Of a stretch of 64,000 bases of DNA, positions 1,401-5,117 are shown piece by piece; the first letter of the stretch is position 1, and each line of letters starts with the position of its first letter. The notes under the pieces were generated by a model. That model saw only the letters and a list, made by a program, of their open reading frames with translations. It was not told the DNA's origin and did not search any database. Position numbers and translations under genes: made by a program. The stretch is from an uncultured Rhodospirillaceae bacterium. GTDB lineage: Bacteria; Pseudomonadota; Alphaproteobacteria; Dongiales; Dongiaceae. The DNA lies in contig CADEFF010000015.1 of the NCBI GenBank assembly GCA_902826565.1, positions 1 to 64,000 of the forward strand. The letters are read 5' to 3'.

Positions 1401-1687
1401 TACTCGACCACCTTCGGCACGGCGAAAAAGCCGGCGGCGGCTTCCGGCGCATTGGCGAGGATGCGATCGCGATCGCCGCCGTCCGTCACCGCGTCCTTGC
1501 GCTGCGGCAGCTTGAACTGCTCGACGCCGGACATGGGCGCGACGCCCGAAACGTCCACCTCGTTGAGCTGCTCGACCCAGCGCAGGATGCCTTCGAGCTC
1601 GCCGGCCAGCGCGTCGGCCTCCTTCGGCTCCAGCCGGATGCGGGCGAGCGTTGCGATATGGGCAACGGTCTTGCGGTCGAGCGACAT
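1400..1687 (-). CDS. gatC: Asp-tRNA(Asn)/Glu-tRNA(Gln) amidotransferase subunit C
   Basis: Small 95-residue subunit that stabilises GatA and GatB. The protein begins [17 protein letters not shown] and ends in a C-terminal FFAVPKVVE tail, both typical of GatC. The frame stays open upstream of this start, but the ATG at 1687 is chosen because an AAGGAT-type ribosome site lies just before it and the length fits the family. It is the first gene of the gatC-gatA operon; its promoter must lie in the 251-base gap shared with the divergent Rieske gene. Confidence 0.95.
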
Positions 1688-1938
1688 GACGATCCTTCGC
1701 AAATGGAAAACCGGGCGGGACGACCCCGTCGCCGGATCCCGGATATCTCCGAAGGGAGCCGATCCCCGGGCGGAGGCAGGTGCACGCCTTCGGAGGGCGG
1801 CGAAATTATCATCCGCTTCCGGCCGCCGCAACCGGAGGCCGGCCGCGGCTTTCCGCCATAGGCCGCTCGCTTGCCCAAGGAGGACGGCGCGCTTACTCTG
1901 CCGGCCGGCGGCAACGCGGTATCAAGGGAGAGACCCGC

Positions 1939-3105
1939 ATGACCAACCCGGTGCAAGAGCTCCTGGGCAAACCGGCCATCGAGGCGCTGAAGCGGCCGAT
2001 CGGGCAGGCCTTCGGATTGCCGGGCGCCGCCTTCACCAGCGACGCTTTCTTCGATCTGGAGAAGGAAGCGCTCTTTCCGCGCACCTGGGCTGTGGCGGGC
2101 GTGGCGAGCGACATCCCCAAGCCGGGCGATGCGAAGCCGGTCACCGTATCGGGCCTGCCGCTGATGCTGGTGCGCGACCGCGAGGGCCAGATCCGCGCGT
2201 TCCACAACGTCTGCCGCCATCGCGGCATGCGGCTTCTGACCGGGCCCTGCAAGGGCCAGACGACCCTGCGCTGCCCCTGGCATAGCTGGTCCTACGCGCT
2301 CGACGGGCGCTGCATGGCGACACCGAACATCGGCGGCGTCGGCGTGAACGAGGCCAAGGGTTTCGAGAAAAGCGAGCTCGGGCTGAAGCCCGTCCGCGCC
2401 GGGGTATGGCTGAACACCGTCTTCGTCAATCTGGACGGCAAGGCGCCGCCGCTTTCCGAGCATGTCGCGCCCTACGAGGAATATTACTCGGCGTTCGATC
2501 TCTCGCTGCTCCGGCACAGCGGCTACACCGACCGCGAGTTCAAGGCGAACTGGAAGCTCTGCATCGAGGGCGGCATCGAGGATTACCACCTGCCCTGGGT
2601 ACACCCGCAGTTCTTCGAGGGCGTGCCGGCCTGGCACGGTCGCGCGATCCTCGATCGCAGCCTGGTCGGCACCGAGAGCTGGTTCGGCAAGTCGGACGTC
2701 GATCTCTACGGCGCCAAGCGCGAGCTGCCCTGCTTCCCGGGCCTCAACGACGACCATCGGCAGACGGGGAACTTCATGGTGCTCTTCCCAAATGCCGGGC
2801 TCTCGATCGGGCCGGATCACATGGCGATCACGCACTATGTCCCGAAGAGCGCCGGCCTGACCTATTACCGCAAGGACTATTACTTCATCGGCGATGCCGC
2901 GACCGATCCCGCCTTCGAGGAGGCCCGGAAGACCGTCACGAGCGGCTGGCTGCAGATCAACGATCAGGACCAGAGCATCGTCGAGCCGCTGCACGAGAAC
3001 CACCGGACCCGCGACAAGATCGGCATCGACAACCGGTTCTCGCCGGAATGGGAAGGCGCCATCCGCGGCTTCCAGACCCTGGTGGTCGACACGATGATGC
3101 GCTGA
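1939..3105 (+). CDS. Rieske [2Fe-2S] aromatic-ring-hydroxylating-type oxygenase, alpha subunit
   Basis: A 388-residue Rieske non-heme iron oxygenase. The Rieske motif is complete (CRH, 17 residues, CPWH), followed by the mononuclear iron motif EDYHLPWVH, with two His spaced HX4H, and a C-terminal carboxylate in the DQDQSIVE stretch. Such proteins hydroxylate aromatic or quaternary-ammonium substrates using electrons from a reductase. No ferredoxin, reductase or beta subunit lies nearby, so the electron donor is encoded elsewhere and the substrate cannot be inferred. The ATG at 1939 is preceded by AAGGGAG; the longer open frame upstream lacks such a site. Confidence 0.9.
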   Translation: MTNPVQELLGKPAIEALKRPIGQAFGLPGAAFTSDAFFDLEKEALFPRTWAVAGVASDIPKPGDAKPVTVSGLPLMLVRDREGQIRAFHNVCRHRGMRLLTGPCKGQTTLRCPWHSWSYALDGRCMATPNIGGVGVNEAKGFEKSELGLKPVRAGVWLNTVFVNLDGKAPPLSEHVAPYEEYYSAFDLSLLRHSGYTDREFKANWKLCIEGGIEDYHLPWVHPQFFEGVPAWHGRAILDRSLVGTESWFGKSDVDLYGAKRELPCFPGLNDDHRQTGNFMVLFPNAGLSIGPDHMAITHYVPKSAGLTYYRKDYYFIGDAATDPAFEEARKTVTSGWLQINDQDQSIVEPLHENHRTRDKIGIDNRFSPEWEGAIRGFQTLVVDTMMR

Positions 3106-3238
3106 CGGCGCGTCCCCGATCGCCCGGCGTCGCGCCGGAGTGCCGGGCCGTCGCCGGGGAAGCTTTGCGGCTGATATTGCCGGAAATGCCGCGCGAAGGC
3201 AGACTTGGGCCGCGCCCGTCCCGCATAGGTGGCCCTCG

Positions 3239-4486
3239 ATGCGCCCCGCCATGACCCTGCCCGCTCCCGGCCTCGCGCTTGTCGCGTGGGTCGCGCTCTT
3301 TCTCGCCTTCGCCGTTCCCGCCGCGGCCTTCGATCCTTCCCTGGGGCAGACGGTCGACGGGCAGCTCTACAAGCCGACCGAGAAGTTCGTGGCCGCCCTG
3401 CTGGTGGATCAGGGGCTCCGCAGCAAAGTCGACGACGAGGGCGACCTCGAGGTGACCTTCACCGTCGATGGCGTGACGGTCCCGGGCTGGCTGATCTTTG
3501 ACCGCCTCGACGACGGGACGATCTGGAATCTCCGCTTCACGGCGAACCTGCCGACCGACCACGAGCGGCGCGATCAGTATCACGAATACGCCAACGGCTG
3601 GAATCGCGACGAAGTCACGGTGAAGCTCTTCGTCAATGACGAGGAGGGGCTGGTTGCCGAGCAGAACTTCCCGGTGCAGTTCGGGCTCAATCCGAAGGAG
3701 TTCGCCGAGAACGGCTATCAGGTCTTCATCGAAGGCGTCGGGCGCGTGCTCGAGGATATGGGCGCCGGCGCGGTCGGGGCCGGCGACGAGCCGGTGGCGG
3801 ATCCGGGAGACAATCCGGGCGAGCCCATCGTGGCGAGCGATCCGCCGGCCCGCGCCATCGGGTTGCTGGAGATGTCGGATGGCACGGTCTGCTCCGCGAG
3901 CGTGGTCGCCATGGATGTGATCCTGACGGCGGCGCACTGCCTGTTCGACGAGGATCACGACCGCGTCTCGCCGGCCCTGTTCAGCGCCGGCTACGACCGT
4001 GGCGACACCGTCGCCACCTCGAAGATCCGCGACGTCTATCTGCCGCCGGAGTACGACCACAAGAAGTTTCTCTCCACCAACGACATCGACGGCTACGACT
4101 ACGCGTTTCTCCGGCTCTACCGCGAGATCGGCGAGGATACCGGCATCCTGCCGGTGCGCGTGCTGAGCAGCGGCGAGCTCGATGCCATGATGGAGGTAGG
4201 CGGCACCAGCTTTACCCAGATCGGCTACGGCAACGAGGACAGCGACCATCCCGTGGTACGGCGCAACTGCCGCATCGAGCAATGGTGGGACGACAATACC
4301 TATGCGCATCACTGCGGCACGGTACCGGGCGATTCCGGGTCGCCCGACCTGATCCTGCTGAACGGCGAATACTCGATCGTCGGAATCGAATCCGCCGAGG
4401 TCGATTTCCGCAACCTGAAGGGCGCGGACATGGTCGTGTCGGCTGCCGCCTTCGCGGACGCGCTGGCGAATTTCATCGCCCGCTGA
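3239..4486 (+). CDS. Secreted YbjN-domain/trypsin-like serine protease fusion
   Basis: A 415-residue protein with three parts. Residues 1-30 are a signal peptide with a long hydrophobic core ending VPAAA. Residues about 45-170 resemble the YbjN fold: an NGWNRDEV segment, then an acidic strand VNDEEGLVAEQNF and FGLNPKEFAENGY. After a Gly/Pro/Asp linker (about 176-200), residues 205-415 form a trypsin-like domain with His233 (LTAAHC), probable Asp288 (GYDYAFLRL) and Ser366 (GDSGSP). It probably acts in the periplasm or outside the cell. The trypsin assignment is firm and the YbjN assignment is by pattern only. A second ATG four codons downstream is an alternative start. It lies 133 bases after the Rieske gene with no obvious link. 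Confidence 0.85.
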   Translation: MRPAMTLPAPGLALVAWVALFLAFAVPAAAFDPSLGQTVDGQLYKPTEKFVAALLVDQGLRSKVDDEGDLEVTFTVDGVTVPGWLIFDRLDDGTIWNLRFTANLPTDHERRDQYHEYANGWNRDEVTVKLFVNDEEGLVAEQNFPVQFGLNPKEFAENGYQVFIEGVGRVLEDMGAGAVGAGDEPVADPGDNPGEPIVASDPPARAIGLLEMSDGTVCSASVVAMDVILTAAHCLFDEDHDRVSPALFSAGYDRGDTVATSKIRDVYLPPEYDHKKFLSTNDIDGYDYAFLRLYREIGEDTGILPVRVLSSGELDAMMEVGGTSFTQIGYGNEDSDHPVVRRNCRIEQWWDDNTYAHHCGTVPGDSGSPDLILLNGEYSIVGIESAEVDFRNLKGADMVVSAAAFADALANFIAR

Positions 4487-4499
4487 GGAGAGCGCGGGG

Positions 4500-5117
4500 T
4501 CAGCCCCAGGCGATCCAGAGAGCCCAGAGGCCGAACCCGACCAGCACGAGGCCGGAGATCCGGTTGATCCAGGCCGTCGCGGTCGCTCTGAGGCGGTGCC
4601 GCACCGCCCCCACGGCGAGGCTGAGAAAGAGCCACCAGGCCGCCGAGCCGAGCAGCACGCCCGCCACGAGCTGCAGCGCCGATCCGGCGTCGGGCGTCGA
4701 GCCGAGCCCCACGCTCGCGAAGATCGCCGCGAAGGACAGGATGGTCGCGGGATTGGCGAGGGTCAGCAGGAACGTGCTGCCGAAATATCCGGCGAGATCG
4801 ACGGCACCTCGGGACGGCGCGGCGTTGATCTCTGCCGGCGGACGCCGCATCCCGGCAATGCCGAGCCACAGCAGAAAGATGCCGCCCACGGTGGCGATCC
4901 ATTCCTGCCGGTCGATGAGCAGGGCCGCGAGCGCCGTGCCAAAGGCGCCGATCGCGCCATAGACCCCGTCGGCAACGGCCGCGCCGAGGCCGGTCACGAA
5001 GCCGGCGAGACGGCCGGTATTGAGGGTGCGCCGCATGCAGAGCACGCCGATCGGGCCCACGGGGGCCGCGATCGCGAGGCCGATGACGAAGCCGCGGAGC
5101 CAGAGATCGATCGTCAC
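4500..5117 (-). CDS. LysE/RhtB-type amino-acid exporter, copy 2 of a tandem pair
   Basis: A 205-residue inner-membrane protein of the LysE translocator family, with about six hydrophobic segments and the N-terminal signature GLAIAAPVGP shared with its upstream neighbour. The family exports amino acids or related small molecules in exchange for protons. It follows the other LysE gene by 13 bases on the same strand and is probably the last gene of an lrp-lysE-lysE operon. The substrate is unknown. It ends 13 bases from the convergent protease gene. Confidence 0.88.
   Translation of the reverse strand: MTIDLWLRGFVIGLAIAAPVGPIGVLCMRRTLNTGRLAGFVTGLGAAVADGVYGAIGAFGTALAALLIDRQEWIATVGGIFLLWLGIAGMRRPPAEINAAPSRGAVDLAGYFGSTFLLTLANPATILSFAAIFASVGLGSTPDAGSALQLVAGVLLGSAAWWLFLSLAVGAVRHRLRATATAWINRISGLVLVGFGLWALWIAWG

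Follow-up and report, generated by a model that had tools for sequence, protein, structure and literature searches.

The window, the whole stretch of 64,000 nucleotides that was analysed, carries at 3239..4486 (+) a gene for a YbjN-trypsin fusion of 415 residues, read from the translation of a frame with zero internal stops (an alternative ATG lies at 3251). The gene sits between a gatC-like gene (1403..1690, -), a name that we presume from its position next to an Amidase gene, and a lysE-type exporter gene (4500..5117, -; PF01810). The protein consists of a putative export signal (residues 1-30, 3239..3328), a YbjN module (residues 31-175, 3329..3763), an acidic linker (residues 176-200, 3764..3838) and an S1 trypsin-like protease domain (residues 201-415, 3839..4483), all on the + strand. 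In the N-terminus, one Arg and no acidic residue precede a hydrophobic stretch, with a mean Kyte-Doolittle value of 2.38 across 19 residues from residue 12, that ends in AAA/F. By composition this start looks like an export signal, in line with an earlier note in which the protein was called secreted; export itself is presumed from it. The linker holds 5 Asp/Glu and zero Lys/Arg, and the AlphaFold2 model has pLDDT <50 across residues 149-192, in agreement with the disordered acidic linker described before.

Pfam places YbjN (PF10722; 2.4e-7; 31.5 bits, the curated cut-off being 22) at residues 51-157 (3389-3709) and Trypsin (PF00089; 4.7e-10) at residues 210-387, together with Trypsin_2 (9.3e-7). 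A separate genome search returns YbjN at the same place with 33.7 bits, and an NCBIfam scan of the protein gives zero matches. Both domains lie in the single 415-residue frame, as had been claimed, and the fusion is no assembly or frame artefact, because the same architecture is present in two other genomes.

In these two related genomes, G013 (locus L034) and G014 (locus L035), genes A, B, C and D are consecutive on the same strand. A, B and C are three YbjN-protease paralogues with identities to the window protein of ~40%, ~30% and 56-57%, C being the orthologue. D (L034 9580-10431, +; L035 5099-5794, -) lies directly after C in both genomes and encodes a protease-less YbjN protein that starts with an export-like N-terminus and ends in a tail rich in Gly, Ser and Asn. 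The genome of the window (G000) itself holds a second, diverged YbjN-protease protein of 640 residues on contig 33 (L023 1243-3165, -), with Trypsin at 56.6 bits and YbjN at 24.2 bits over residues 272-320; the fusion profile matches it over 23-334. As YbjN, its N-terminal region 1 reaches a weak hhalign probability of 5.9% and its region 2 one of 11.8%, YbjN in the latter being supported by Pfam. The further N-terminal region may be another YbjN copy.

The S1 protease domain

His233 (3935..3937), Asp287 (4097..4099) and Ser366 (4334..4336, in GDSGSP) form a His-Asp-Ser triad in the order of S1 proteases with GDSGxP, and together with Cys 218, 234, 344 and 359 they are invariant across six full fusions (alignment A3). 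The His and Ser had been named correctly in the earlier note; the Asp had been placed at residue 288, which is a Tyr. The protease blocks are modelled with pLDDT 81-98 from residue 201, and the chymotrypsin fold is recovered in VIA with Z 28.4 and 26.0. The domain is assigned to the S1 serine proteases of YdgD-like kind, with an intact triad.

Escherichia coli YdgD, a putative serine protease (PDB 7uxg), is the solved protease most similar in sequence (E 2.9e-17 across residues 200-409) and the first Foldseek match. It aligns in VIA with Z 26.0 at 2.9 A over 225 residues and has the same Cys spacing ahead of GDSGSP, but it lacks a YbjN domain, has a chain of 273 residues and is 22-23% identical to the window protein. 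The best VIA match is the glutamyl endopeptidase of Bacillus intermedius (1p3c; Z 28.4, 2.2 A over 205 residues). In 1p3c the motif VGVHNA carries a His, which we take to be the S1-pocket residue reading a Glu side chain. The window protein has Glu384 (VGIES) in place of this mark of glutamyl endopeptidases (S1B), so specificity for Glu is not expected. The S1 place is acidic in the window protein, in paralogues A and C and likewise in three of the four members of f42, the single-domain closest outside relatives of the protease (the fourth, L043, shows GIES); it is Asn in B and Ala in L023. A preference of the window protease for basic residues is suggested from sequence.

Alphaproteobacterial S1 proteases such as those at L060, L061 and L062 likewise join a related protease to an added N-terminal module, which is a run of Cys-rich DSCxWAxDGECDE-like repeats, whereas in the window protein it is YbjN. 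Repeats of this kind front related S1 proteases at L059-L062, L049, L050 and L055. At many Rhodobacteraceae-type loci, related protease genes are paired close together (L081, L082, L084, L085 and others). In non-fused relatives, G.D[DN]R is conserved, in most cases 24 residues upstream of the first Cys (L008-L013, L045-L057 and others); by hand count, D[DN][RK] occurs within 50 residues before the first Cys in 37 of 156 rows and in 0 of 8 fused rows. The D[DN]R found ~24 residues ahead of the first Cys in many non-fused relatives was considered as an activation site and dropped, as in the fold alignment this position falls within the mature start of glutamyl endopeptidase, a related enzyme.

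Identity and predicted fold of the YbjN module

The N-terminal module is assigned to YbjN by PF10722, by the YbjN subfamily alignment (A2) and by predicted secondary structure. The profile search had been set beforehand as the test able to refute this call, and its match at residues 51-157 sustains it, as do the orthologues (C), with 46.4 bits in G013 and 38.4 bits in G014. A scores 18.4 (under the cut-off) and 29.2 bits in the same two genomes, and D scores 34.3 and 41.9 bits. B has no Pfam match in either genome, yet the A2 profile reaches it at 1.1e-8 and 7.8e-8, and hhalign gives B of G013 a probability of 96.6%. It is very improbable that the N-terminal part is an unrelated small alpha-beta domain matching the profile by chance: the score of the window protein is modest, the subfamily alignment finds no match against the ordinary YbjN set and the predicted fold is of low confidence, but six of the nine proteins of the set (the window protein, C13, C14, A14, D13 and D14, numbered by genome) exceed the curated cut-off, the best at 5.6e-12.

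The strongest YbjN gene in each of 16 genomes was taken as the ordinary YbjN copy. These genes are frames of 171-331 residues, consistent with the earlier statement that YbjN is usually single-domain. AmyR, DR1245 and E. coli YbjN are single-domain and cytoplasmic, whereas the YbjN of the window protein lies between an export-signal-like start and a protease.

Prediction of the whole structure, proposed in the earlier note, yields a YbjN-like order of elements in a region of low confidence. The AlphaFold2 model was built from 39 sequences, all except the first covering mainly the protease, and its YbjN part has block mean pLDDT values of 39-69. The predicted elements are a helix (46-57), three strands (70-76, 79-89, 95-102), a helix (108-119), two strands (127-134, 137-145) and helices at 152-158 and 167-173. 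In this low-confidence region the order agrees with the one described for DR1245 (helix, three strands, helix, two strands, helix; PMC3575483). Folded alone without relatives, the YbjN part has a mean pLDDT of 47. With the low-confidence YbjN part alone, Foldseek returns no match at 0.001, DR1245 (4h5b) being among the rows at E 0.45, and VIA lists 4h5b (Z 4.4) and four type III secretion chaperone entries (Z 4.2-4.6) level with many unrelated rows such as kinases. Profile searches of the PDB give weak matches only with A2, the best being G-protein chimeras (E 0.0066) that are taken as chance, and nothing below E 0.9 with the ordinary YbjN. Support for the YbjN fold comes from the profile and from the order of the elements, not from a confident model.

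Spread and origin of the fusion

The protease is matched in 16 of 17 family genomes by a search with the whole protein, while the YbjN part in this form is found only in G000, G013 and G014; the A2 profile returns the same count (3/17). The survey of genomes that the earlier note had called for finds the fusion in three family genomes and in one of 385 in a draw from the class. The class match of A2 is the own genome, with none in the 384 others; four other family members are listed in this draw, and G013 and G014 are both absent from its matches. At 1e-25, the fusion profile matches 13 of 398 phylum genomes, and only the two places of the own genome extend into the YbjN part. Two scans of 84,980 named species, a collection that may lack records close to the own genome, give no fusion: with the YbjN subfamily there are 36 pattern matches and zero relatives, and with the whole fusion 199 relatives, of which the best 80 were taken and contain zero fusions. 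Among 154 loci scanned with A2, YbjN is found only in those of G000, G013 and G014, the others reaching E 4.6 and 7.4 at best. Viral contigs give no match to A2; with the own cytoplasmic-type YbjN copy they yield two ordinary YbjN, which were left out of the structure work as misaligned with the window protein. Of 10 plasmid records, none reaches 80% query coverage. The YbjN-protease fusion is rare and of narrow spread, and more diverged fusions may exist elsewhere. Among the titles and abstract openings listed for YbjN and for YbjN with protease (PMC13092808 and PMC10948618 among them), no such fusion appears; both families are known, and their combination is new.

Of the 14 family genomes with both neighbours on one contig, 10 have gatC and lysE matches separated by 77-148 bases (G005, with the two genes on separate contigs, G010, with neither match, and G016, with gatC only, were excluded). 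Gaps of 2.8-7.7 kb separate the two genes in G000, G013, G014 and G015; in G015 the space is filled with other genes. The fusion genes of the window, G013 and G014 share this place, and the wide as against narrow gaps (1690-4500 in the window) indicate that they sit in a variable insertion place. By LysE identity, G013 (69%) and G014 (68%) are the nearest relatives, the next reaching 56%.

In the unconstrained protease tree, the f42 proteases, which carry no YbjN part, fall inside the fusions, and L023 stands apart; on this topology YbjN would have been lost or the fusion would have arisen twice. In the second tree, used for the AU test, 22 of 76 rows were dropped (13 distant or long, 9 near-copies). 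The test rejects neither a single clade made up of the seven cluster fusions (p-AU 0.354) nor one that joins all eight fusions (0.085). The four f42 genomes hold one YbjN gene each, of strong ordinary type.

Between G013 and G014, dN/dS of the YbjN or N-terminal part is 0.29 in A, 0.86 in B and 0.31 in C, and that of the whole of D is 0.37; the proteases have 0.45 (A), 0.29 (B) and 0.24 (C). Two of the three paralogue pairs (A and C) show purifying selection on YbjN, and the N-terminal part of B is nearly unconstrained. These values bear on the view that the fusion is a neutral, chance accretion in one lineage, with YbjN playing no role in proteolysis. The narrow spread among the family genomes, the near absence of constraint in B and the lower identity to C of the YbjN part (40-43%) than of the protease (68-70%) fit such an origin, which the constraint on A, C and D and the second YbjN-protease protein of the own genome make unlikely.

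Possible roles of YbjN on a putatively exported protease

The explanation to which we give most weight, at somewhat under an even chance, is that YbjN is kept on an exported protease as a protein-binding or pairing module, dimerising and/or holding a peptide. AmyR and DR1245 form dimers in their crystals, have the type III chaperone fold and are proposed to bind unfolded chains or partner proteins as type III chaperones do (PMC5398634, PMC3575483). Carried over by analogy to an exported protease, this behaviour suggests pairing of subunits or holding of a peptide. The protease, with YbjN behind its export signal, would leave the cytoplasm, and YbjN would stay attached through the flexible acidic tether after export. 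There it would bring fused proteases together as dimers, would in the related genus also pair them with the YbjN-only partner D, and/or would hold an extended peptide beside the active site. That YbjN may deliver or recognise substrates, as the earlier note proposed, is another candidate mechanism.

The main rival to this retained module is a removable pro-domain: YbjN would serve as an internal chaperone or lid that aids folding on export and is cut off in the linker, freeing the N-terminus of the protease for the activation pocket. Pro-segments of S1 proteases sit N-terminal, as YbjN does here, and in trypsins the Asp before the catalytic Ser, present in the GDSG of the window protein, holds the freed N-terminus. 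The fold alignment sets residue 188 of the predicted model against residue 3 of 1p3c, so that the chain start of 1p3c would fall in the linker at ~186. The N-terminal place and this chain start keep the pro-domain alive, as a possibility we take seriously without expecting it. Against it, the linkers vary widely in length and sequence among the paralogues, with no common cleavage-like motif seen by eye, and the single-domain f42 relatives manage without YbjN. Both G013 and G014 have the YbjN-only gene D after C, so that a YbjN module is retained where no protease is attached; a role as mere pro-peptide would leave this unexplained.

A lasting role is favoured by the free partner D and by the selective constraint on the YbjN parts of A and C; the YbjN matches over the cut-off in the window protein, C13, C14, A14 and both D genes, as well as that of L023, also speak for it. 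Against the retained module stand B, which keeps its protease under constraint and not its N-terminal part, the f42 proteins without YbjN, and the low-confidence YbjN model, with a fold search that gives no significant match. In an elaboration that we regard as a long shot, A, B, C and the protease-less D would form mixed dimers in an extracytoplasmic complex, D would set the number of active sites per complex and the YbjN groove would feed extended peptide; the window gene would then be the minimal, self-paired form.

YbjN proteins have the type III secretion chaperone fold, and a YbjN linked to an enzyme bears on what YbjN binds. Joined to an enzyme whose chemistry is known, and accompanied by paralogues and by a free YbjN partner, the module offers a direct biochemical handle: removal of the YbjN domain would let a change in proteolysis be read, which makes the fusion useful for learning how YbjN domains act after export. 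YbjN-like proteins that stand alone and begin with an export-signal-like stretch are encoded in the own genome (L003 1465-2028, -), with no match when compared with A2, and in another member of the class (L190 1498-2043, -).
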